From NCBI GenBank assembly GCA_003250475.1, contig QKGI01000153.1, forward strand, positions 1 to 45,016: a stretch of DNA of 45,016 nt, read 5' to 3'. A program made the translations under genes and the position numbers. The notes beneath the pieces are model-generated. The model was not told the origin of the DNA, did not search any database, and saw nothing but the letters and a program-made list of their open reading frames with translations. The stretch is from Bacteroidota bacterium (lineage in GTDB: Bacteria; Bacteroidota; Bacteroidia; Bacteroidales; VadinHA17). Shown here piece by piece: positions 10,563-25,802 of this stretch. Within the stretch, counting starts at the first letter, position 1, and every line of letters starts with the position of its first letter.

Positions 10563-11696
10563 ATGAAAAAAATAGTTATTCTGGGAGCCGGCATGGTAGG
10601 ACGTGCCATGGCAAAGGATCTGTCCGCGAAGCACATTGTTACATCTACCGACATTGACAGCAGGGCACTTGATCTCCTTGATGGCATACCCAACCTTGGG
10701 AGAGCACTTCTTGATGTAACAGATCACGGTGCCCTGGCAAGGGTAATAGAGGATTCAGACATTGTTCTGTCGGCGGTGCCGGGCTTTCTTGGCATGCAGA
10801 CGATGACGCAGGTAATTAAAAACAGGAAGGACCTGGTTGATATCTCATTCCTGCCTGAAGAGGTGTCGCAGCTTGACGGGCTTGCAAAGACCAACGGGGT
10901 CACAGTGGTAATGGATTGCGGCGTTGCCCCGGGTATTCCAAACTATGTCGCCGGATATCATAACGAAAGGATGAAGATCGATGAACTGAACTATATGGTC
11001 GGAGGTCTTCCATTGATCAGGAGACTGCCTTTCGAATACAAGGCACCCTTTTCACCGTGTGATGTGATAGAAGAATATACAAGGCCGGCAAGGTTTATGG
11101 AAAACGGCCAAGTGGTGGTGAGGCCCGCAATGAGTGATACCGAATATGTGGATTTTGACAGGGTTGGCACACTTGAGGCATTCAATACCGACGGCCTGCG
11201 ATCGCTCCTTCGTACCATGAGGCACATACCTGACATGAAGGAAAAAACGCTGCGTTACCCGGGACACATCGGCCTGGTGGGAGCGCTTAAGCAGGCAGGG
11301 TTTTTCGACAGTGAACCTGTTGTCATCAACGACACAGAAATCTCCCCGCTGGATTTCACCTCAAAAATTTTATTCAATGCCTGGAAGCTTGAAGATGGTG
11401 AACCGGAGTTCACTGTTATGCGGATAACCATCAGGGGGACAGAGCAGGGAATAGCCAGGGAGATAGTATATGACCTTTATGATGAGTATGACACCGGGGA
11501 AAAAGTCTCTTCGATGGCCAGAACCACCGGTTTCACAGCCACCGGGACAGCTGAAATGATCCTGGCCGGGCTGTTCACGGAAAGAGGAGTCTTCCCGCCC
11601 GAGCTTGTAGGAAGGCACAGTAAGTGTTTCGATTTTATTATCAGATACCTGCAGGAGAGGAATGTTCATTACAAGGTTACTGAACTAAATGGATGA
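10563..11696 (+). CDS. Saccharopine dehydrogenase-like oxidoreductase
   Basis: A 377-residue cytoplasmic enzyme. The N-terminus has a Rossmann nucleotide-binding motif (VILGAGMVGRAMAKDL, residues 5-20) and an acidic residue ending strand 2 (TSTDID), which suggests NAD preference. Residues 100-350 follow the saccharopine dehydrogenase/LYS9 layout: MDCGVAPGIPNYVAGY, a substrate region with YMVGGLPLIRRLPFEYK, TLEAFNTDGLRSLLRTM, and KTLRYPGH. Plausible reactions are saccharopine reductase or lysine 6-dehydrogenase; sequence alone does not decide. A DksA/TraR-like gene follows after 56 bp on the same strand. Confidence 0.85.
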   Translation: MKKIVILGAGMVGRAMAKDLSAKHIVTSTDIDSRALDLLDGIPNLGRALLDVTDHGALARVIEDSDIVLSAVPGFLGMQTMTQVIKNRKDLVDISFLPEEVSQLDGLAKTNGVTVVMDCGVAPGIPNYVAGYHNERMKIDELNYMVGGLPLIRRLPFEYKAPFSPCDVIEEYTRPARFMENGQVVVRPAMSDTEYVDFDRVGTLEAFNTDGLRSLLRTMRHIPDMKEKTLRYPGHIGLVGALKQAGFFDSEPVVINDTEISPLDFTSKILFNAWKLEDGEPEFTVMRITIRGTEQGIAREIVYDLYDEYDTGEKVSSMARTTGFTATGTAEMILAGLFTERGVFPPELVGRHSKCFDFIIRYLQERNVHYKVTELNG

Positions 11697-13903: not shown

Positions 13904-16435
13904 ATGAAAAGATGGATCCTAAATATTATTGCTATACTGTTAACGATCAATACCTACGGGCAGAACTGTTCGATATTTTCCAAGGCAAATAATATTACAC
14001 CCGACAAGCTCTGTTCGCCGGTAACTGCTACCTGGACTGTTAGTTATACCGGTGTAAATGATGACGGGTATCCGGTGGAGATAAGGTTTGACTGGAATAA
14101 CGGTACCATAGAGACCATTCCAGCAACTGAGACATCTCCGGGGGTCTTTGAGGCTACAGCCATTGTAACCTATACATCAGCCGGCAGCATATGCAATTAT
14201 CATCCACAGGCAACGCTTGTTGTCAACGGTGTTCTCTGTACCTCCTCATCACAGGAACAGATCGTAACAGTGTGGGATGATGATGATCATAACGGCGGCC
14301 AGATGCATATTGATCCGCTGGTCTATCCCATCTGTTTCGGCAACAGTGCCAATGTGCGTTTTCAGGATCTGACCCGTTTCAACTGTGTTCCCCCGCAGGA
14401 AAATGACAACCCGAATGTTAACACAAGATGGATACAGTGGATTTACGGCACCTCCAGCACCATGACCGGCAATCCGGTTACTGTTGACGGCAGGTTAAGA
14501 ACCTATCCCTATACTGATGATGTAATTACGTTACCCGGTCCGGTAACAGGGTCCGGGGTCCTTTCCGATGTTATTTTTGTCGATAATGACAAGCTGATAG
14601 GGCAATATTTTGAGGTAACACTGAGGAACTGGAATTACTGTAATCCCTATGATGATCCTGCTATTCCCGGCGGACCGCGTGACCGCGTTAACGGGGACCA
14701 TCCGCCTGTTGAGACCACAGCCATCATACTGATAGTCCCTTATCCGGATGCAACCATTACACCTGTATCCAGTTTATGTGCAAATGATCCTCCTGTCACG
14801 CTCGTGGCTCATGATCCCGGTGGCATATGGACGGGTGATGGTGTTACAGGAGATATTTTCGATCCGTCGATAGCCGGACCCGGGAATCATATCATAAGAT
14901 ATGAGGTCACCAATGGAGATGGTTGCAGTGACGTGGATGAGACCGTAATAACTGTTTATCCTGTACCGGATGCAACGATCCTTAACGGGGGAATAGTATG
15001 CTCTACCGACCCAGTTATTGTTCTTCAGGCCCGTGACCCGGGAGGTGTATGGTCAGGAACAGGGGTAGTGGGCAATATATTTTATCCGGCAGTGGCCAAT
15101 ACCGGCAATCATGTCATAACATATTCAATAACTGATGCAAACGGGTGTTCAGACTTTGATGAGACTATCATCACCGTTGCCACACCCGATGCCACCATCA
15201 CTCCTGTTGACACGTTGTGCGAGGACAGCCCCGCTGTCACCCTGACTGCCCATGACCTGGGAGGTATCTGGTCAGGACCGGGCGTTGTTGGTGATCAGTT
15301 CGTGCCTGCCCTTGCCGGGGTAGGCGATCACCTTATAAAATACAACATTGTAAACACCGATTGCAGCGACAATGACAGCACTGTCATAACTGTCATGCCA
15401 ATACCTTCAATAATAACAGATAATCCCGGGACAGCTTTTCTTAACGGTTCTCCTGTCACCCTTGTGGCCTATCCTACCGGTGGGAGCTGGTCAGGAACAG
15501 GCGTGACGGGAAACGTATTCGATCCCTCGGAAGCCGGGCTCGGGATTCACAACCTGACATATGAGCTGCCCCCTCACAGCTGGGGATGTGCAGCAAGGCA
15601 GAGTATTCAGATAACTGTTATCATGCCACCTCTGCCTGTGGCAGATTTTGAGTTTCCTTCAGACGGATGTGCCCCTCTAACGGTACAGTTCAAGAATAAA
15701 AGCATCCACGGAGAGAGTTATACCTGGGATTTCGGTGACAGGCAATATTCTGACGAAAAAAATCCGGCGCATACATATTATGTGCCCGGCAGCTACATAG
15801 TCAAGCTTACTGTCCATAATATCGCGGGAGAGGCTGTCCGTAACGGAACAGTCACTGTCTATCAGAATCCCTCTGCAATCTTTGACGCCTATCCCACCCA
15901 TATAGTAAACAATGAGCAGATAGTCGTTTTTTACAGCTACTCTTTCTTTGCTGACAGCTGGTTTTGGGATTTCGGTGATGGCAGCACCTCAACTGAAGAA
16001 AATCCATACCACAAGTATGAATCACAGGGGACATATACTGTTTCCCTTAATGTTGCCACCGGTTATGGTTGTGTCGATTCAGCGGTGATGGAGACCCCTG
16101 TTGTGGTTGAATGGAAGATGGGCAACCTAAGGTTCCCCAACGTGTTCAAATGGAACGGCAACGGTCCGACAGGCGGACAATGGAGTGATGGAGTATATCC
16201 TGAGATGGATTTTGTTTTCAGGCCATTTTTTGAAAATGTAGTTGAATACAAACTCCAGATATTCAACAGGTGGGGTACGTTGATATTTGAAAGCCATGAA
16301 CTGGAGAAGGGCTGGGACGGATATTTCGGTAACGGAGATCTTGCTGCCCAGGGAGTATATGTCTGGAAGGTCTCGGGAAGATACGCTGACGGCGGGTATT
16401 TTGATGAAGTGGGTGATGTAACGTTTTTACATTAG
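13904..16435 (+). CDS. Secreted multidomain protein with PKD domains and type IX secretion C-terminal domain
   Basis: An 843-residue exported protein. A signal peptide (residues 1-19, ending NTYGQ) is followed by a non-repetitive N-terminal region (20-280). Four tandem repeats of about 73 residues follow (281-354, 355-427, 428-499, 500-573), each with a GGxWSGxGVxGxxFxP core. Then come two PKD domains (578-654 and 655-735, each with WDFGD), and a gliding-motility-associated type B C-terminal domain (740-843: FNRWGTLIFES, GWDGYFGNGD, GVYVWKVSGRY). The last domain directs export through the type IX system and surface attachment. The role is probably adhesive or structural. No type IX machinery genes are nearby. 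Confidence 0.9.
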   Translation: MKRWILNIIAILLTINTYGQNCSIFSKANNITPDKLCSPVTATWTVSYTGVNDDGYPVEIRFDWNNGTIETIPATETSPGVFEATAIVTYTSAGSICNYHPQATLVVNGVLCTSSSQEQIVTVWDDDDHNGGQMHIDPLVYPICFGNSANVRFQDLTRFNCVPPQENDNPNVNTRWIQWIYGTSSTMTGNPVTVDGRLRTYPYTDDVITLPGPVTGSGVLSDVIFVDNDKLIGQYFEVTLRNWNYCNPYDDPAIPGGPRDRVNGDHPPVETTAIILIVPYPDATITPVSSLCANDPPVTLVAHDPGGIWTGDGVTGDIFDPSIAGPGNHIIRYEVTNGDGCSDVDETVITVYPVPDATILNGGIVCSTDPVIVLQARDPGGVWSGTGVVGNIFYPAVANTGNHVITYSITDANGCSDFDETIITVATPDATITPVDTLCEDSPAVTLTAHDLGGIWSGPGVVGDQFVPALAGVGDHLIKYNIVNTDCSDNDSTVITVMPIPSIITDNPGTAFLNGSPVTLVAYPTGGSWSGTGVTGNVFDPSEAGLGIHNLTYELPPHSWGCAARQSIQITVIMPPLPVADFEFPSDGCAPLTVQFKNKSIHGESYTWDFGDRQYSDEKNPAHTYYVPGSYIVKLTVHNIAGEAVRNGTVTVYQNPSAIFDAYPTHIVNNEQIVVFYSYSFFADSWFWDFGDGSTSTEENPYHKYESQGTYTVSLNVATGYGCVDSAVMETPVVVEWKMGNLRFPNVFKWNGNGPTGGQWSDGVYPEMDFVFRPFFENVVEYKLQIFNRWGTLIFESHELEKGWDGYFGNGDLAAQGVYVWKVSGRYADGGYFDEVGDVTFLH
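14744..15622 (+). repeat. Four tandem in-gene repeats encoding ~73-residue modules
   Basis: Four diverged copies (about 72-74 codons each) within the secreted protein. Each encodes a P-x-A-T-I-x-x opening, a DPGGxWxGxG core and an ITVxPxP-like close. They differ enough at DNA level that recent slippage is unlikely. Confidence 0.8.
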
Positions 16436-16536: not shown

Positions 16537-19491
16537 TCAGGTATTCTTTTCAGCTGCCGGTTTCATGATGACCCCGGTCTTTTTCTTCCCGTCTATCATG
16601 ACCGTCATGGGCAACGGGAACCTCACGTGCCTGATAAGATCATCCTCATATATCCTTTTCCCGCCTGAAAGGAAATCATAGTCTATAAATCCGTCGCCGA
16701 TAAAAGGATTTACTGTAAAATAACCGACCCTGAACGCAGTGAGGTTCTGGAAAAAATGTGTTCCCTGGCTCGGATCGATCCTGTAATTCTCAAGACCGGA
16801 CTCTACAATAATCCTGGCGGCAGATATCTGCTGCCATTTGATGGGTATGCCGCGCCACGGATCACTTGATCCCCATCTGCCGGGACCGATAAGAATATAA
16901 TTCCTATCCTCTTTCAGAAACCTGTCATTGATCCCATTTAGCCTGTCGGCTATCTCCTGGTTTTTAGAAGCCTCAAAATTTTCAGTCCTGATGTAGACAA
17001 GATCACATAACCCATTGACTGTTCCGTTTCCAAGCGCAGAATGCGAGAAAACCACAGTCTCGTCTTCCGGTATCTCCTCCAGTCTGAATTTTATTGTTTC
17101 ATAGTTTTCTACAACGGGGCGTATCTGCAGCAGGTTAAAGTTGACCGGTTTCTTCTTTTCCGGGTCAATATTGGCGGCAAACTCTATCTCCACAGGGTTA
17201 TTCAGTTGTTGCTGCCCGAGCTCGAGTATTGTCTTCAGGATCTCTGCCATCGGAAACAGATCATATTTGAGAATATTGGCAAATGTGATCACCTTCTTGC
17301 CCCCCTCCATGGGTTCGTCCCTGAGCATATCATCCTGGTAGTCATATGTCGAAGCGGCAAAGTCAAGAGACCCGTCATTTTCCGCATCGGTGATCTTAAG
17401 CTTAAGCAGGTTGACAGAATCGTCGGTACTGGGGACAAAGCTTGCCGGGTCAAGATCCAATGCGTAAAACTCCTGTTGGGTTTCGCGCAGTGCCATCTTT
17501 GTATCTGATAGCTGCAGGATTTTGCGCGGGTATTTTGGAGAGAATCTGAGGGCTATTCCCCCGTCAACGATATATTTACCGAGGCCGAAGGCAAGGCTGA
17601 CAAATCCATCCTCAGGTTTTTCCGGTTCCAGGGGATAGAAATTCACGGATCTTGCCACGCCGGAGATGGTCGGGTAGAAGCGGTTGCCATATTGCTGTCC
17701 GCATATTTCCTGTAAGACGACCCCCATTTTTTCCTCCTCGATGACATTGGCAGTGGCCTTCATATAATCCTTGCTGCCCTTAAAAAATACCGAGGCATAG
17801 ACGCTCTTAATGCTTGTGCTCAGCAGGTCGAGCATGATCCCCTCATCCTCAGTTCTGGGTATCATGTAGGTTGAATACACCCCGGCAAAAGGCTGAAAAT
17901 GTGAATCTTCAAGAAGGCTGGATGAGCGTATTGCCACCGGCCCGCGAATTATTGAGATGAAGACAAAAAGATCCTTGTGGATCCTTACGGGCAGCCTGGC
18001 ATTAACGAAAGCATCAAGAATATCGTCATCACTCCTGTCAGACAGGCCAATCCCGTAGAGATTGTTTGTCTCCATGAACTCATCAAACACGTCGGTACTA
18101 AGGACTACCGTTCTGGGTATGGAGACTATGGTATTGCTGAAGCTTTCAAAAAAACTGTTCTGCTTGACAAGGTAATCGAGAAAGGCGAGTCCGCGTGCCT
18201 TACCGCCCATCGAGCCCTCACCTATCCTTGTAAATGCAAGGTATTCATCAAAATGTTCCCTGTAGAAGTCAGCTACTACCCCGTGTCCTTTGTTCCGCCT
18301 GAAGTTGGCAATAGTATCGAAAATAAAGCGCCGGGCCTGGTCAAGGCTTGTAAAGTCGTCAAGGCTTATCTCTTTCAGAAACTCGGCCAGGGAAAAAAGG
18401 GCACGGGCATAAAGCCATTTCGACAGCTGGTTTTTTGACAGGTGGTAACGAAGTGACTCATCAGGTATCTCAAATATCCTGCGTTGAAAATTCTGGAGAT
18501 CGGAGACACGGGCAATCTCTGCGCCAGTTCCCGGGTCAGTGAAAACAAAATCGCCAAAAGAGAAATATTTTCTTAACAGAGCTTTGATCTCCGGCTGCAG
18601 GCCGAAGGATGTATCGCTCAGGAATACCGTTGAATATCCACCGGCAACCTTTTCATTATCAGGATCTGTTGAATGTATTATAACCGGAATGTCACCGTCC
18701 CGGTCTTTTATATGCCTGAAAAAGTCATCTGCGGTATTCCCGGTTTTGATACCGTTCCGGTAAATGTCAAAACAACCGATAACGCCAAGAAGCTGGGATT
18801 TATGTTTTTCATAAAGACTGATGGCGCTTTCAGTGTCTGTTGCAAGGATAATTTTTGGTCTCCCTCTCATCTGCATCATCTTCTGATGCTCATTCAGCCC
18901 TTCAGTCATGTACTCAAGCGACTGTTCGAGGATAATCCGGTACAGGTGACGCAGGGAGACTGATGCCAGCCTGACTGAACTCTCGAAAAGCAGGATTGAC
19001 TGCACCCCTTCGTGCCTGGCATCTTCGTCTACGTTCATCCTGTCCTCAACGAGGCTTATTACCGGGAGAAGAATATTTGTGCTTCCCAGCCAGTTGAACA
19101 CATAATCGATGCACGCCATCTCCTCGGTGTCGAGTCTGAGGGCTATCTCCCTGGATACGGGAGCAAGTATCACTATTGGCTTGTCAGGCCATTCGTTTTT
19201 AATCTTCAGAGAGAGCTCAAACGGGTCCATATCGCTGATACTCAGCATATTTATAACCAGATCGATCTGTCGGTGACCCAGTTCCTTTAATGCCTGTTCA
19301 GCAGAAGTGACATGTATGAACCTTGGAGGGTAACGGAGATTGAATGATACGTAGTCATTGAAAACTTTCTCATCAATTTTCCCGCCCTCTTCCATAATAA
19401 AGGCGTCATACCTGCTGCAGATGAGCAGTACGTACTGTACTCTCTTCTGCATCAGGACTTCGAATGAGGTCTCTCTGAAGATGCTTTTCAC
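16537..19491 (-). CDS. PPDK-type ATP-binding domain protein with two degenerate receiver domains
   Basis: A 984-residue cytoplasmic protein, by its layout a signalling or phosphotransfer protein. Residues 17-150 and 163-315 look like two response-regulator receiver folds, both without the phosphoacceptor Asp (DLVINM at 77-82; VIGC, Cys240, in the second). Residues 424-795 match the pyruvate phosphate dikinase PEP/pyruvate-binding N domain: GGKARGLAF (429-437), GPVAIRSSSLLEDS (517-530), PFAGVYSTYM, and the closing LLQIRPV (787-793). No His swivel domain or PEP-binding barrel follows; instead a C-terminal module (796-984) has IGPGRWGSSDPWRGIPI and GTHFFQNL. It begins 3 bp after the gdhA stop with a GTG; an ATG at 19452 is the alternative. 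It is a shorter paralogue of the divergent 1557-aa protein. Confidence 0.85.
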   Translation of the reverse strand: MKSIFRETSFEVLMQKRVQYVLLICSRYDAFIMEEGGKIDEKVFNDYVSFNLRYPPRFIHVTSAEQALKELGHRQIDLVINMLSISDMDPFELSLKIKNEWPDKPIVILAPVSREIALRLDTEEMACIDYVFNWLGSTNILLPVISLVEDRMNVDEDARHEGVQSILLFESSVRLASVSLRHLYRIILEQSLEYMTEGLNEHQKMMQMRGRPKIILATDTESAISLYEKHKSQLLGVIGCFDIYRNGIKTGNTADDFFRHIKDRDGDIPVIIHSTDPDNEKVAGGYSTVFLSDTSFGLQPEIKALLRKYFSFGDFVFTDPGTGAEIARVSDLQNFQRRIFEIPDESLRYHLSKNQLSKWLYARALFSLAEFLKEISLDDFTSLDQARRFIFDTIANFRRNKGHGVVADFYREHFDEYLAFTRIGEGSMGGKARGLAFLDYLVKQNSFFESFSNTIVSIPRTVVLSTDVFDEFMETNNLYGIGLSDRSDDDILDAFVNARLPVRIHKDLFVFISIIRGPVAIRSSSLLEDSHFQPFAGVYSTYMIPRTEDEGIMLDLLSTSIKSVYASVFFKGSKDYMKATANVIEEEKMGVVLQEICGQQYGNRFYPTISGVARSVNFYPLEPEKPEDGFVSLAFGLGKYIVDGGIALRFSPKYPRKILQLSDTKMALRETQQEFYALDLDPASFVPSTDDSVNLLKLKITDAENDGSLDFAASTYDYQDDMLRDEPMEGGKKVITFANILKYDLFPMAEILKTILELGQQQLNNPVEIEFAANIDPEKKKPVNFNLLQIRPVVENYETIKFRLEEIPEDETVVFSHSALGNGTVNGLCDLVYIRTENFEASKNQEIADRLNGINDRFLKEDRNYILIGPGRWGSSDPWRGIPIKWQQISAARIIVESGLENYRIDPSQGTHFFQNLTAFRVGYFTVNPFIGDGFIDYDFLSGGKRIYEDDLIRHVRFPLPMTVMIDGKKKTGVIMKPAAEKNT

Positions 19492-19494
19492 GGG

Positions 19495-20838
19495 TTACAC
19501 CACTCCCTGGGCCAGCATGGCCTCGGCAACCTTTACAAATCCTCCTATATTAGCCCCGTCAACATAGTTGATGTATCCGTCTTTCTGTGTTCCGTATTTT
19601 ACGCATGTTGCATGAATATCCTTCATGATCTGGTGCAGCCGGCTGTCAACCTCTTCACGGGTCCATGACAGACGCATTGAGTTCTGTGTCATCTCTAGTC
19701 CTGAAGTTGCAACTCCACCGGCGTTTGCTGCTTTCCCGGGGCCAAAGAGTATCTTATGTTTGATAAACACATTCACTGCTTCCGGCGTGGAAGGCATGTT
19801 TGCTCCTTCTGAGACGACGAAGCAACCGTTTTTAACAAGGAGTTCGGCATCGGCACCCGATATCTCATTCTGTGTGGCAGAGGGGAGTGCTACCTGGCAT
19901 GGCACTTCCCATGGTGTGGGTTTACCATCGACATACTGGCACCTGTATTTCTCAGCATATTCCCTGATCCTTCCTCTTTTAACATTCTTCAGGTATTTGA
20001 CGAAAGCAAGTTTCTCTTCGTTAATACCTTCCGGATCGTAAATATATCCGTTTGAGTCAGAGAGAGTAACAACTTTGGCGCCCAGCTGAATGGCTTTTTC
20101 GACGGCAAACTGGGCCACGTTACCCGAACCGGAGACGGTGCATATTTTGTTTTTCAGTGTTTCGCCCCTCGTATTGAGCATCTCCTCGGCGAAATAAACC
20201 TGTCCGTAACCTGTTGCCTCAAGCCTGATAAGGCTGCCGCCCCATTCGAGGCCTTTTCCTGTGAGTACGCCGGTAAATTCATTTCTCAGGCGCTTATACT
20301 GACCGAAGAGGAACCCGATCTCTCTTCCGCCGACACCTATATCACCGGCAGGTACGTCGGTGTTTGCACCCACATGCCTGAACAGTTCGCTCATGAATGA
20401 CTGGCAGAACCGCATCACCTCGTTATCACTTTTTCCCTTGGGATCAAAATCAGACCCTCCCTTGCCGCCACCCATCGGCAGGGTGGTCAGGCTGTTTTTC
20501 AATACCTGCTCGAATGCCAGGAACTTGAGAATACCCAGGTTTACTGTAGGATGGAAACGAAGGCCACCTTTGTATGGTCCGATAGCACTGTTCATTTCGA
20601 TGCGGAAGCCTTTGTTAATCTGGATCTCACCCTTATCGTCCACCCACGGGACTCTGAAGATTATAATTCTTTCGGGTTCAGACATTCTTTCAAGGATTTT
20701 AGCAGAGCGGTACTTCGGATTCTCCATTATGAAAGGCATAAGGGATTCACTTACTTCTCTGACTGCCTGGTGAAATTCTACCTCACCTGGATTCTTGGCG
20801 ATGATCTTCGCCATAAATTCTTCAACGGGATTTGACAT
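19495..20838 (-). CDS. gdhA: NADP-specific glutamate dehydrogenase
   Basis: A 447-residue enzyme, exactly the length of the E. coli hexameric GdhA. It interconverts 2-oxoglutarate plus ammonium and glutamate with NADP(H), and is a main ammonium-assimilation route. Visible signatures are GPYKGGLRFHP (87-97), the catalytic Lys126 in PMGGGKGGSDFDP, DVPAGDIGVGGREIG (161-175), and the nucleotide-binding VSGSGNVAQ. The downstream PPDK-domain gene starts 3 bp after its stop, so both are almost certainly on one transcript. A 13-bp palindrome lies 70 bp upstream of the start. Confidence 0.97.
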   Translation of the reverse strand: MSNPVEEFMAKIIAKNPGEVEFHQAVREVSESLMPFIMENPKYRSAKILERMSEPERIIIFRVPWVDDKGEIQINKGFRIEMNSAIGPYKGGLRFHPTVNLGILKFLAFEQVLKNSLTTLPMGGGKGGSDFDPKGKSDNEVMRFCQSFMSELFRHVGANTDVPAGDIGVGGREIGFLFGQYKRLRNEFTGVLTGKGLEWGGSLIRLEATGYGQVYFAEEMLNTRGETLKNKICTVSGSGNVAQFAVEKAIQLGAKVVTLSDSNGYIYDPEGINEEKLAFVKYLKNVKRGRIREYAEKYRCQYVDGKPTPWEVPCQVALPSATQNEISGADAELLVKNGCFVVSEGANMPSTPEAVNVFIKHKILFGPGKAANAGGVATSGLEMTQNSMRLSWTREEVDSRLHQIMKDIHATCVKYGTQKDGYINYVDGANIGGFVKVAEAMLAQGVV

Positions 20839-21128
20839 AGTTTTTGGTTTTTGAAATGAGTGTTTGTAACAACAAAATTTGGAAATTAAATTTCACTAAT
20901 TTCCATTTGTTTGGCAAACATTATCAGGGATTTTTTTTTACTTTCATCAGAATATAATTTTGATTTATCATTGTGATGAAACCACTGATGATTGCAGGCA
21001 GCTCTGCCTTATTTGTGGTTGTTATGGCAGAGCCTGCCGGCGGGGTTGTGGTTGCTGGTTTTCACGGGGATTACAGGTTGAATTGAATATGGTCCCCGGT
21101 TTATCTCATTTTTTGAAGCGTTAGCAGG
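20839..21128. promoter_or_regulatory. Divergent control region of gdhA and the 1557-aa sensor gene
   Basis: A 290-bp region between divergent starts. Two structures stand out: a perfect 13-bp palindrome TGTTTGGCAAACA at 20908-20920, close to gdhA and overlapping a near-match (TAATGTTTG on the minus strand) to a Bacteroidota -7 box; and a bulged hairpin at 20994-21037 close to the 1557-aa gene (GCAGG + CTCTGCC pairing with GGCAGAG + CCTGC, 3-nt bulge). Neither is followed by a T run. Confidence 0.45.
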
Positions 21129-24100
21129 ATGGAAGATATATCCAGATGGCAGAAGGAGATGCAGAAACTTCTGGCTGAGAAAATTCAAAGCCAGAAGGGG
21201 CTTTCCATTATCTATACCATCAATAAGATTATCAGCAAAAACAAGCCGGTTGAGAACACTCTTCTGGAAATAGTCAGGGAGATCCCCAGGGGCTGGCAGT
21301 TTTCGGAGTATGCCTATTCGCGGATAAAATATGACGGGAAGGAATATAAACCGGAATCGTTCAGGGAGACACGCTGGATACAGAAGCAGATATTTGAGAC
21401 CTATGACAGGAAGTGGGGCGCTATTGATGTCTTTTACACCAAGCAGTTTCCCCGCGCAGATGAGGGACCCTTCCTGCATGAGGAGAGACAGTTGCTCGAG
21501 AATATTGCCACTATTATCTGCAACTACCTCAATTCTCAGAATGCACTTGAATCCGCAGATACTCCCAGGTTAGAGACCACACGTAAGCTCGAAAGCACAA
21601 GAAGGCAGATAGAACAGAAAAATATTGAGGAAACTCTCTCACAGATATGCAGGGACATGCCCAAGTCGTGGAAATACCCTGAATATGCTGTAGGAAGGAT
21701 TTTATATGACGGGAATGAATACATCAGTTCCGATAAAAATATAGATAACGCCGAATACAGCTTACGACAGGAGTTTTTCACCATCGATAACAAATCAGGT
21801 AAGATTGAATTCTTCTACCTGAAGGGATTCCCGTTTGATAACAGGGAGGCTTACCTTAAATCCGAGAGGGAACTTATAACAAACATGGCCAATCTCATTA
21901 CCGGCTTTTTAAATATAATCAAGGGTAATGAGATGAGGCAGCCGGGGGAACGGGACGGACTTCAGTCCACCGGCAAGACAGAAGGCACCAGGATATTTGC
22001 CTGTATCAACGAGATCTCGAAACGCCTGAGAAATGGCGTTTCCATTGAGGTGACCCTCAAGGAGATAATTGAACTGATACCCCGGGCCTTCAGGTACCCT
22101 GAGAATATAACGTGCCGGATCAGGTATGATGGAAAGGACTATTCGTCACCGGGGATGGAAGAGCTACCACTGGTGACCGAGGCAACCTTCAGTACTATCT
22201 CAGGAAAGAGTGGTACAATACAGGTATTTTCCACAGGAGATCATCTCACCGAAGGCGAAGAGCCGTTCCTGGAGGAAGAAAAGCAGTTTGTCGAGACACT
22301 TACATTACTTACTTCTGGCTTCATAAATCTTATCTATGGCCTTGATTCGGTGATAGCTACCGAGAGAGGACTGAAGGAGATAATTTATGAAAAGACCGAA
22401 CGTATAAAGGAGCTGGCATGTATCAACCAGACCACCTCAATACTTCAGGCGGAGAAATCGATAGACAACGCCCTTAAACAGATAGTCTATATCCTTCCCG
22501 ATGCCTGGCAGTACCCGGAGAATACCGTGGCAAGGATAAGCTTTGATGGCAGGGAGTACATGTCGCCGGGATTTATTATCACGAAATGGAGGCAGAGGCA
22601 GCCGTTCCTTACCATCGATGACAGGGCCGGGGAGGTGGAAATATATTATACAAAGGAGTTTCCTGATATTGATGAGGGTCCTTTCATGAAGGAAGAGAGG
22701 GACCTTATAAATAATATTTCAACGCTGATCTGTAATTACCTCAACAGCGTTCAGGGAGAGGTTGCCATAAAGAAGTACAGATCCGATGAGGAGCTGAAAC
22801 AAAAATACCAGGCGGCAAAGGATTTTCTCCTTACAAAACGTAAGCTGCTGCAAAATTTTCTTGAGAAGAACAATTATGACCGCGACATATTTCATGACCT
22901 CATGAAATTCAAGGTCAAGGAGATACTGATCATATCAAACCTGTATGATGCGTACAGCCTGGAGCGTGAGGGCAAGTTTTCAGATTATATCCTTGGGGTT
23001 TACTACCAGCTTAACCTGACTACCATACCCAGGATCACCGGGGTCTCCTCTTTTGAGGAGGCATTCGAGAAACTGTACTCGAGGCATTTTGACCTGATAA
23101 TAATAATGGTTGGTGTCGACAAAAAGGTGCCGATGGAGATTGCAGGCAAGCTTAAGTCGCTTTACAAGTATATACCTATTTATCTGTTGCTCAACAATAA
23201 TCAGTACGTTGAGTTTTTTCAGTCCGAGCAGAAGAGAACCAGCCTTATTGACAACGTTTTTGTCTGGAACGGTGACTCAACGATCTTCTTTGCCATGGTA
23301 AAGCAGCTTGAAGATTATGTCAATGTGGAAAACGACACAAAAATCGGATACAGTCGCATAATCCTGCTCGTTGAAGATTCGGCCAAATATTATTCACGAT
23401 ACATACCTCTTCTCTATCATTGTGTGATGGAGCAGACCAGGCGCATCATCGAGGATGTAAGCACGATGGATGAATTATACAGGGTGCTTCGCCTGAGGGT
23501 CAGACCCAAGGTGCTGATGGCAGCCAATTATGAGGAGGCTATCAGTATATTCAGAAAATACAAGGATTTTTTCCTTTGCCTGATAACCGATGTGAAGTTT
23601 CAGAAGAACGGCAAATTTGATGAGAATGCCGGCTTTGACCTGGTCAGGTATGTAAAGAGCGAGATTTCAGATCTTCCTACCATCATACAGTCTTCTGACA
23701 GGGAGAATGAGAAGCTTGCCACAGACCTTAACTGTGCGTTTATCAATAAGGATTCCGATACGCTTGCGCAGGACATAAGGAATTTCATCAGCTACAATCT
23801 GGGATTTGGCGACTTTATCTACAAGGATGCCCTGGGCAGGACGATCGGGACCGCCAAGAACATGAATGAGTTTGAAGAGCAGCTCCAGTCCATTCCTATC
23901 GAGACCCTTCTCTATCATGCCCGGAAGAACCATTTTTCACTTTGGCTGACAGCACGCGGTGAGATCCAGCTGGCGAGGGAGATAGCTCCCAAGAAGATAA
24001 GTGATTTCAGGGATCCCGAGTCTTTGCGCGATTACCTCGTCGGGATTGTAAAAAAGCTGAAATATGAAAAGAACAAGGGAAAGATCGTAGACTTTGACGA

Positions 24101-25802
24101 GACGCTGCTGCTGGAGGAGAGCAATATCATCCAGCTTTCCCCGGGCGCACTCGGCGGCAAAGGCAGGGGATTGTCATTTATCCACACGCTGATCTACAAT
24201 TTTGATATCTCACTGTATGTACCAGGCATAAACATCAAGGCTCCACGGACCTTCATAATAGGCACGAATGAGTATGATGATTTTCTCGACAACAACAGGT
24301 TGAGAGACAGGGTTTTCACAGAGACCAACTATGATAATATCAAGAGATGGTTCATCGAGGGCAGGCTCTCTGCCGCGCTGGAGTATAAACTGCGTATCAT
24401 ACTTGGCAAAATAAGCAAGCCGCTGGCAGTCCGTTCTTCAGGGCTGTTTGAAGACTCCCTGATGCAACCTTTTGCGGGAATTTTTGAAACATACCTTTTA
24501 CCAAACATACACGAGAACATTGATGTCAGGCTGGAACAGCTGACAGGAGCCATTAAGCTTGTATATGCTTCAATCTTCTCAAATACGGCCCGTGATTATA
24601 TCAGTGCCATCAACTATAAAATAGAAGAGGAGAGGATGGCTGTCATCATTCAGGAGGTGGTGGGGGAACATCATGAGAACTCATATTATCCGCATATCAG
24701 CGGTGTCAGCCAGTCGTACAATTACTATCCCTACGGTCACATGCAGCCTGAGGACGGGTTTGCCGTCACTGCGATAGGGCTGGGCACGTATGTGGTCGAG
24801 GGAGAAAAGGCTTTCCGGTTCTCACCAAAATACCCCATGCTGGAAAACAGCAGCCCCAGAGACCAGTATCTTAATTCACAGGTTGAGCTTTTCGCTGTTG
24901 ACCTGAACAAAAAGGAGTTTAACCTTCTTGAAGGAGATACCGTGGGGCTAGTCAGGCTGACTGTCGAAGATGCAGAAAGACACGGTGTTATCAATCATTG
25001 TGCCTCTGTCTATTCTGCGGAGAATAAATCTATTTATCCTGGGATTGACAGGCCGGGCCCGAGGGTCATCAATTTTGCAGATATACTTAAGTATGAATAT
25101 ATACCTCTTGCCCAATCGCTGACCGAGATACTTGATATTGTCAAGGAGGCACTGGGGACTCCTGTTGAGATAGAGTTTGCCATCGACCTTGAAAAGGATG
25201 CCGACTACAAGGCGTCATTCTACCTGTTACAAATCAAGCCTATAATAGGCGCGGCTATTGACTATGAGGTCAATATGGATGATATTGACAGTTCGCGCAT
25301 TCTCCTTTATACTGAGAAAAGTATGGGTAATGGCATGATCGGCGATATAAGCGATGTGATCTATGTAAACAGGGAGACTTTTGACAAGTCAAAGACTGTT
25401 GAAATTGCAGCGGAGATAGATTCTTTCAATGATGCTATGAAGAAATCCGGAAGGCAATACCTGCTGCTCGGGCCGGGAAGATGGGGAACCAGGGACAGAT
25501 GGATAGGCATTCCGGTCACCTGGCCGCAGATATGTAATGCCAAGGTGATTATTGAGACCAGTCTTGATGATTTTCCTCTTGATGCGTCCTACGGATCACA
25601 TTTTTTTCACAACGTTACGTCGATGAATGTGGGTTATTTCTCCGTTCAGCACAACCAGAAGAATACTATCCTGAACTGGGATATACTGCAGAAGCAGAAA
25701 GTAATAAAACGGGGCCACTATGTGACGCATGTACAGTTTAAGCACTGTCTTACCGTTAAGATGGACGGGAAGAAGAGGATCTCCGTAATTACATGGGAGT
25801 GA
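21129..25802 (+). CDS. Giant sensor protein: four GAF-like domains, two receiver-like domains, PPDK-type ATP-binding domain
   Basis: A 1557-residue cytoplasmic protein. Residues 25-135, 155-262, 286-402 and 425-540 are four copies of a sensor-like module (IPRGWQFSEYAYSRIKYDGKEY opening, EGPFLxEERxLxxNIATxI closing), similar to GAF-like domains found ahead of some histidine kinases. A coiled linker (545-590) leads to a pseudo-receiver (597-735, no Asp: LIIIMVGV) and a second receiver (742-895) that keeps the acidic pair (LLVEDS), Asp821 (LITDVKF), Ser855 and Lys874. Residues 1003-1371 form the PPDK N-type ATP-binding domain (GGKGRGLSF, LAVRSSGLFEDS, LLQIKP). The end (1375-1557) carries LLGPGRWGTRDRW and YGSHFFHN. 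No His swivel or TIM barrel is present. It is divergent from gdhA and its 984-aa paralogue. An AGG lies close before the ATG. Confidence 0.85.
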   Translation: MEDISRWQKEMQKLLAEKIQSQKGLSIIYTINKIISKNKPVENTLLEIVREIPRGWQFSEYAYSRIKYDGKEYKPESFRETRWIQKQIFETYDRKWGAIDVFYTKQFPRADEGPFLHEERQLLENIATIICNYLNSQNALESADTPRLETTRKLESTRRQIEQKNIEETLSQICRDMPKSWKYPEYAVGRILYDGNEYISSDKNIDNAEYSLRQEFFTIDNKSGKIEFFYLKGFPFDNREAYLKSERELITNMANLITGFLNIIKGNEMRQPGERDGLQSTGKTEGTRIFACINEISKRLRNGVSIEVTLKEIIELIPRAFRYPENITCRIRYDGKDYSSPGMEELPLVTEATFSTISGKSGTIQVFSTGDHLTEGEEPFLEEEKQFVETLTLLTSGFINLIYGLDSVIATERGLKEIIYEKTERIKELACINQTTSILQAEKSIDNALKQIVYILPDAWQYPENTVARISFDGREYMSPGFIITKWRQRQPFLTIDDRAGEVEIYYTKEFPDIDEGPFMKEERDLINNISTLICNYLNSVQGEVAIKKYRSDEELKQKYQAAKDFLLTKRKLLQNFLEKNNYDRDIFHDLMKFKVKEILIISNLYDAYSLEREGKFSDYILGVYYQLNLTTIPRITGVSSFEEAFEKLYSRHFDLIIIMVGVDKKVPMEIAGKLKSLYKYIPIYLLLNNNQYVEFFQSEQKRTSLIDNVFVWNGDSTIFFAMVKQLEDYVNVENDTKIGYSRIILLVEDSAKYYSRYIPLLYHCVMEQTRRIIEDVSTMDELYRVLRLRVRPKVLMAANYEEAISIFRKYKDFFLCLITDVKFQKNGKFDENAGFDLVRYVKSEISDLPTIIQSSDRENEKLATDLNCAFINKDSDTLAQDIRNFISYNLGFGDFIYKDALGRTIGTAKNMNEFEEQLQSIPIETLLYHARKNHFSLWLTARGEIQLAREIAPKKISDFRDPESLRDYLVGIVKKLKYEKNKGKIVDFDETLLLEESNIIQLSPGALGGKGRGLSFIHTLIYNFDISLYVPGINIKAPRTFIIGTNEYDDFLDNNRLRDRVFTETNYDNIKRWFIEGRLSAALEYKLRIILGKISKPLAVRSSGLFEDSLMQPFAGIFETYLLPNIHENIDVRLEQLTGAIKLVYASIFSNTARDYISAINYKIEEERMAVIIQEVVGEHHENSYYPHISGVSQSYNYYPYGHMQPEDGFAVTAIGLGTYVVEGEKAFRFSPKYPMLENSSPRDQYLNSQVELFAVDLNKKEFNLLEGDTVGLVRLTVEDAERHGVINHCASVYSAENKSIYPGIDRPGPRVINFADILKYEYIPLAQSLTEILDIVKEALGTPVEIEFAIDLEKDADYKASFYLLQIKPIIGAAIDYEVNMDDIDSSRILLYTEKSMGNGMIGDISDVIYVNRETFDKSKTVEIAAEIDSFNDAMKKSGRQYLLLGPGRWGTRDRWIGIPVTWPQICNAKVIIETSLDDFPLDASYGSHFFHNVTSMNVGYFSVQHNQKNTILNWDILQKQKVIKRGHYVTHVQFKHCLTVKMDGKKRISVITWE

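Follow-up and report, generated by a model that had tools for sequence, protein, structure and literature searches.

Organisation of the gdhA locus

The window analysed here is the whole stretch of 45,016 nucleotides from contig QKGI01000153.1 (assembly GCA_003250475.1) of a Bacteroidales bacterium of the VadinHA17 lineage; it corresponds to contig C31 of a genome of 168 contigs and 3.47 Mb. It carries gdhA, which encodes an NADP-specific glutamate dehydrogenase (GDH), between two genes whose products share a PPDK_N-type ATP-binding domain. The 984-aa protein encoded behind gdhA is referred to as A, the 1557-aa paralogue encoded divergently as C, and a third paralogue, a 1156-aa open frame on contig C135 of the same genome, as B. 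As far as the literature was searched, the association of this protein family with GDH, which proved to be widespread in the phylum Bacteroidota, is apparently undescribed.

A preliminary description of the window, made from the sequence alone, had placed the gene for A 3 bp behind gdhA and the gene for C divergent from it, and the coordinates confirmed both points: the gdhA stop and the start codon of A are separated by 3 bp, and a gap of 290 bp lies between gdhA and C. The identity between A and C was 34% across 970 aa (606 bits). The gdhA product scored 762 bits against the NADP-specific GDH model NF006929 (cut-off 536), and a second gdhA (64% identity) is located on contig C74. The close junction of gdhA and A was also found in near relatives, where the aligned regions are 7 bp apart in L006-L011 and ~90 bp apart in L012, and the GTG start of A is present in L006, L009, and L011. 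Between A and its counterpart in L006, pN (nonsynonymous divergence) was 0.118 and pS (synonymous divergence) was 0.736; A is under purifying selection. The placement of gdhA between two paralogues, as first described, holds for the genus of the window; elsewhere the usual finding was a lone member or a tandem of B and A.

GDH genes accompany the family across Bacteroidota

The family was found in 49 of the 296 genomes of a draw across the phylum, the window genome included, and this number was the same when two or up to ten candidates per genome were scored. In a draw of Bacteroidales genomes, at least 131 of 148 had the family (own genome again included). After the three matches of the window genome had been removed from 85, a GDH gene was present within 6 kb of 68 of the 82 remaining family genes, in 40 of 48 genomes. 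This value is a lower bound, since 76 of 102 GDH matches were used and the 26 left out were nearly all ~30% identical. As a control, genes encoding the phosphoenolpyruvate (PEP)-utiliser domain PF00391 were examined in the 13 genomes shared between 30 chosen for variety and the GDH-scored phylum draw, and none of the 25 lay within 10 kb of GDH. The adjacency is thus not unique to the window genome, as the neighbourhood survey proposed in the preliminary description has established.

Three forms of the family were distinguished. Among the long forms, GDH was located within 1.5 kb in 40 of 49 cases and within 500 bp in 39 of 49, mostly directly upstream on the same strand. A short form of ~580 aa consists of PPDK_N and the C-terminal module only, without receivers, and 9 of 11 such genes were within 1.5 kb of GDH. 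The third form, of ~1060 aa, has one sensor-like repeat in front; 7 of 11 were within 1.5 kb of GDH, and those seven start no more than ~145 bp from it. An NTP_transf_2 nucleotidyltransferase domain was detected at the C-terminus of four of five ~1060-aa proteins scanned (28.2-34.6 bits, cut-off 21), and a strict GS...DxD motif is present in 8 of 12. In L184:2100-8337 and L185:99-6418, GDH, a short form, and a ~1060-aa form with the nucleotidyltransferase motif make up a tight row in which the PPDK_N genes overlap by a few bases. Because GDH is also followed by the short form, which has no receivers, and by the ~1060-aa form, PPDK_N plus the module is the part common to the GDH neighbours. PADLOC reported nothing for A or C, and its matches were confined to the nucleotidyltransferase part of the one ~1060-aa protein scanned; a defence-system reading was rejected.

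The arrangement of gdhA and the family gene was variable, comprising upstream tandem, downstream tandem, divergent, and convergent pairs. Two kinds of GDH occur beside the family, namely the NADP type and another that best matches the archaeal model NF040817 (492 and 536 bits, below the cut-off of 750). In L189, L192, L200, and L205 the order is GDH-A-GDH, and the extra same-strand GDH after A is 30-31% identical to that of the window; the one scanned, from L189, best matches the archaeal type. Eight genomes contain two GDH-A pairs each, defined for this purpose as long forms with GDH upstream on the same strand within 2 kb; this definition took in neither the short and ~1060-aa forms nor downstream or divergent pairs. 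In these genomes the true pairing ranked 1st of 256 within-genome swaps for the correlation between the tree distances of the two proteins, which was r 0.625 when calculated over all 36 pairs of this kind.

Gene contexts in Bacteroidales

The Bacteroidales loci were examined separately, using the best 80 of 488, picked by similarity to A only; many of their flanks are clipped by contig ends. GDH was present in the fetched flank of 29 of the 80 loci, and in 18 of 45 when only well-flanked loci are counted, for which 4.5 kb or more of upstream and 2.5 kb or more of downstream sequence was available. A paralogue-A tandem was found in 12 of these 45. Here too the orientation varied: gdhA precedes A in the window genus, follows A or is divergent from B in other loci, and is convergent with A in L081. 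In Parabacteroides distasonis (family protein WP_041525632.1) and Phocaeicola massiliensis, A and gdhA are divergently oriented, with another gdhA 3.5-4.1 kb downstream. The records of these two species and of a Prevotella, another named member, are filed as plasmids; the Prevotella record (1.77 Mb) is suspected to be chromosomal.

Two further contexts recurred. Of 74 loci (L012-L085), 23 had GDH, 10 had korA-korB, and 7 had a cluster of NuoE, NuoF, and a large GltD/NuoG/Fdh-like protein, together accounting for 39 loci; in L049 the order is korA-korB-A-gdhA. Behind the NuoE-NuoF-large-protein row, A was found in L031, L033, L039, L045, L052, L054, and L078, and the large protein of L039 (1235 aa, the one scanned) has GltD-like, NuoG-like, and formate-dehydrogenase-like parts. 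In the window genome, the frame of B starts 64 bp behind korA-korB (L266:4045-10433; G000:C135), and its KorAB matches 2-oxoacid:acceptor oxidoreductase families. If this KorAB is specific for 2-oxoglutarate, family members in the window genome would stand beside two enzymes that meet at this metabolite.

Domain architecture of A and C

The features of the two proteins are listed in Table 1. As the preliminary description had proposed, both contain a PPDK N-type ATP-binding domain, with Pfam scores for PF01326 well above the cut-off of 27 (122.5 bits, E 3e-35 for A; 138.8 bits, E 3.4e-40 for C). K431, R522, E768, E770, and Q789 of A, whose catalytic roles we presume from those in PPDK, were invariant in all 90 alignment rows. 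The five residues were also retained in 35 of 35 outgroup A proteins, which had been selected for a GDH upstream, in 5 short forms, and in 12 ~1060-aa forms (with D at 768).

Table 1 Features of the gdhA locus in the window
Feature	Position	Strand	Basis
A, 984 aa, GTG start; pseudo-receiver, receiver, PPDK_N, and C-terminal module	16537-19491	-	ORF (open reading frame) calls, Pfam, alignment
A, C-terminal module without Pfam family; GRWG and S-Q-G-T-H-F-F (H912)	16561-17154	-	Alignments, Pfam/PDB profile searches
A, ATP-grasp domain of PPDK_N type (residues 427-798); K431, R522, E768, E770, Q789	17098-18213	-	Pfam, alignments
A, second receiver, degenerate in the window (S171, C240, D293)	18556-19005	-	Alignments; boundaries approximate
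A, first of two receiver-like domains; acceptor position occupied by Met (M82)	19027-19443	-	Pfam, alignment; boundaries approximate
gdhA, NADP-specific GDH, 447 aa	19495-20838	-	ORF call, Pfam, NCBIfam
Intergenic region between divergent gdhA and C, 290 bp	20839-21128	.	ORF positions
C, 1557 aa, paralogue of A with N-terminal repeats	21129-25802	+	ORF calls, Pfam, alignment
C, tandem array of four ~120-aa repeats that may be GAF-like sensors	21189-22808	+	Self-comparison; Pfam GAF weak
C, pair of receiver-like domains; E-D, D, S, and K retained in the second	22914-23798	+	Pfam, alignment; boundaries approximate
C, PPDK_N domain, residues 1008-1373	24150-25247	+	Pfam
C, C-terminal module	25206-25793	+	Alignments

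The C-terminal module, described earlier as common to A and C, was indeed present and conserved. Its motifs GRWG and SxG[ST]HFF were invariant, as was its His (H912 in A) in 90 of 90 rows; in 23 diverse members, GRWG, D98, G102, E118, S129, G131, H133-F-F, and Y145 were invariant (alignment A2, numbered on its first sequence). No Pfam family was assigned to the module, five families each being matched by one of the 23 members (best E 0.029), and the search against PDB gave no convincing relative, the best matches (E 0.072 and 0.091, a phage-tail collar and a synaptobrevin-like protein) being judged chance.

Receiver-like folds had been noted in both proteins, and each has two, although the PF00072 scores of A and C (22.1 and 16.9 bits) are under the Pfam cut-off of 30.2. 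The first receiver lacks the acceptor Asp at the position that we take, from the receiver family, to be the acceptor: the residue there is M in 61 of the 66 A rows and in 23 of the 24 B/C rows, and of the 35 outgroup A proteins 34 have T. All 35 outgroup A proteins have a canonical second receiver (acid pair, acceptor Asp, Ser/Thr, and Lys), with T for S in one of them, and the acceptor Asp of this domain was retained in 89 of 90 rows overall and 24 of 24 B/C rows. Judging from these residues, the second receiver is predicted to be functional in nearly all members examined.

Three pocket positions of the second receiver are changed in A of the window: C240 replaces the acceptor Asp, S171 an acid-pocket residue, and D293 the Lys. 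A of the window is the only one of the 66 A rows without the acceptor Asp. In this protein and its counterparts in L006 and L009-L012, position 171 is S or N and position 293 is H, S, or D; no other A row lacks the Lys. In the comparison with L006, pN of the second receiver was 0.245, versus 0.106 for PPDK_N plus the module. In the window and these near relatives, the second receiver of A is decaying. All three positions are intact in the second receiver of C; because C keeps the whole pocket, the phosphorylation input may have passed to C in the window genome.

The four N-terminal repeats of C are 31-46% identical to each other, and a single ~120-aa repeat was read from the sequences of B of the window genome and two ~1060-aa relatives. 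A GAF assignment was rejected, with a Pfam GAF match in one of seven repeats (E 0.24), and the search of the repeats against PDB gave no relative (best E 0.47). Between the receivers and PPDK_N of C, residues 910-991 (about 23856-24101) showed a sub-threshold match to DUF5752 (17.7 bits, cut-off 23). As to the surroundings, the gene next to A encodes an 843-aa PKD protein (13904-16435) whose C-terminal domain is of the type IX secretion (CHU_C) kind, and a saccharopine dehydrogenase-like protein is encoded ~5 kb from A (10563-11696); the saccharopine dehydrogenase class also works on glutamate/2-oxoglutarate/lysine chemistry. An Rfam scan of the window gave no match to an RNA element.

Discussion

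The recurrence of GDH beside the family indicates that the family is very probably linked in function with GDH or the 2-oxoglutarate node, and a role in regulation appears rather more probable than one in metabolism. The full statement, that A and C belong to an ATP-dependent control family dedicated to enzymes of the 2-oxoglutarate/glutamate node, above all GDH, is a good possibility to which we give slightly less than even weight. The analysis shows the domain composition, the conserved residues of the ATP-grasp domain, receiver pocket, and module, and the linkage across the phylum; a regulatory role, GDH as the substrate, and the nature of the transferred group are inferences. The row korA-korB-A-gdhA in L049 and the position of B behind korAB in the window genome make metabolic sense under this reading. 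The effector core would be PPDK_N (ATP-grasp) together with the GRWG/GTHFF module, and this core probably spends ATP on the covalent modification of a partner by phosphoryl, pyrophosphoryl, or nucleotidyl transfer; alternatively, ATP may be used to hold the partner enzyme in an altered state. The nucleotidyltransferase of the ~1060-aa form favours a transfer chemistry, yet a Pfam scan gave no NTP_transf_2 match in A or C. Input would come through exchangeable extra domains, i.e. the receiver in A and the ~120-aa repeats plus receiver in B and C, and these receivers and repeats would gate the core. The pair may sense a metabolite or redox state and may modify GDH; the preliminary description had suggested such sensing and the modification of an acceptor, with GDH or its substrates as the link.

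Several observations weigh against this proposal. In the phylum draw, 14 of the 82 family genes were unlinked to GDH, and in all four genomes labelled as family f57 the ~1060-aa form occurs with no GDH in its vicinity. In Bacteroidales, 27 of the 45 well-flanked loci were without GDH in their flanks, some of them having KorAB or a NuoEF/Fdh-like cluster in its place, and the Prevotella locus has none in its 8-kb flanks. The Kor and NuoEF/Fdh contexts imply that GDH is not the sole partner. Moreover, genes of one operon are co-inherited, so the swap test shows that the pairs stayed together, not that the proteins are in contact; in one pair (G231), GDH and A fall in non-matching clades. The link of the paralogues with GDH is stronger than the window sequence by itself could reveal, since varied gene arrangements and two GDH subfamilies are involved across the phylum. 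It is looser in Bacteroidales. The finding named beforehand as speaking against it, homologues located mostly away from gdhA, applies to the well-flanked Bacteroidales loci and not to the phylum as a whole.

The same unlinked Bacteroidales loci would suit an old synteny of unrelated housekeeping genes, but the varied arrangements, the two GDH kinds, the paired duplications, and the PF00391 control argue against such neighbourhood inertia, which was already disfavoured and is very improbable. A metabolic role is more difficult to set aside: A might be a PPDK_N-type ligase or kinase that acts on glutamate or 2-oxoglutarate after GDH or Kor, with its receivers and repeats serving allosterically. 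The family adjoins GDH and KorAB, often on the same strand, its ATP-grasp residues are intact, and PPDK_N is known in ligases such as PigC, to which A and C show weak matches (45.7 and 51.5 bits). We nevertheless regard this as unlikely, though still a real contender, because the fused receivers, the sensor-like repeats, and the nucleotidyltransferase in most ~1060-aa relatives examined look more like signalling, and several paralogues per genome occur with different partner enzymes. All three recurring partners, GDH, KorAB, and NuoEF/Fdh-like proteins, are redox enzymes, which would fit A not as a regulator but as an ATP-dependent chaperone, or as a factor for the assembly or repair of oxidoreductases linked to NAD(P)H or ferredoxin. 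This is improbable given the receiver pocket retained in all 35 outgroup A proteins; to our knowledge, moreover, NADP-dependent GDH has no metal cofactor that needs assembly.

PPDK_N homology and the invariant His in the domain that follows raise the idea that A and C work like PEP synthase or PPDK, with the phospho-His half diverged into the module, H912 as the phospho-His, and the receiver Asp or GDH as the acceptor. The preliminary description had noted as background that PPDK N domains transfer phosphate from ATP to a swivelling His or act in drug phosphotransferases. The profile comparison of the module with the PF00391 type gave no support: hhalign returned P 0.15 with a narrow set, and with a broader set the score was 12.2 against a shuffle mean of 11.6, with 21 of 60 column shuffles equal or better. 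PF00391 was undetected by Pfam in A, C, and the module, the module has no Pfam or PDB relative as described above, and the only PF00391 match of the window genome is a separate gene of PPDK type on contig C136. A phospho-His mechanism is hence quite improbable.

Returning to control of GDH by the family, its broadest version would be a phylum-wide new class of nitrogen/carbon control, in which an ATP-grasp and a new catalytic domain reversibly modify GDH, and elsewhere 2-oxoacid:ferredoxin oxidoreductase, under the gating of receivers or repeats. We consider this version possible but doubtful. GDH stands at the junction of carbon and nitrogen metabolism in ammonium-assimilating bacteria, and a dedicated ATP-dependent partner would represent an unrecognised layer of control. 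It would also give a function to proteins annotated merely as 'PEP/pyruvate-binding domain-containing protein', as is the family protein of P. distasonis, a cultured gut commensal in which the family gene sits between two gdhA genes.

Comparison with known systems

Searches of the open-access literature, which mostly did not extend to subscription journals, revealed no article that connects a PPDK_N protein with GDH. Bacteroides thetaiotaomicron presumably has two GDH genes around BT1970-BT1973, on which no claim is based. BT1971 is given as a catalase (PMC12596196, PMC4595636). The words 'dikinase' and 'phosphoenolpyruvate' do not occur in the main text of an article on nitrogen metabolism of Prevotella ruminicola (PMC5552732).

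PEP synthase and PPDK, which consist of PF01326, PF00391, and a PEP-binding barrel, have in common with A and C the PPDK_N domain with its K, R, D/E, E, and Q. Unlike them, A and C have their own C-terminal module and receiver-like domains in front; a C-terminal PEP/pyruvate barrel had no Pfam match in A or C, and the protein ends ~185 residues after PPDK_N. Rifampicin phosphotransferase (Rph) and the PigC/RedH-type enzymes likewise use PPDK_N outside central carbon metabolism. The match to Rph was seen in C only and reached 19.7 bits against a cut-off of 999, the PigC scores given above are far under the cut-off of 1300, and A and C differ from both in having no PF00391 match.

Mycobacterial GarA, a small FHA protein, regulates GDH. 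The family would resemble it as a protein acting on GDH and differs in that no FHA match was found in A or C. GlnE and GlnD exert nucleotidyltransferase control over nitrogen enzymes. No GlnE or GlnD family was among the matches listed; in contrast to these proteins, the family has a PPDK_N core, its partner would be GDH and not glutamine synthetase or PII, and A and C are without a nucleotidyltransferase match. The likeness lies in the idea of covalent control of an ammonium-assimilating enzyme and in the NTP_transf_2 domain of four of the five ~1060-aa relatives scanned. If the broadest version of the control reading is correct, the family would provide a GDH counterpart of the adenylylation of glutamine synthetase, one that would also operate in gut Parabacteroides and Phocaeicola.

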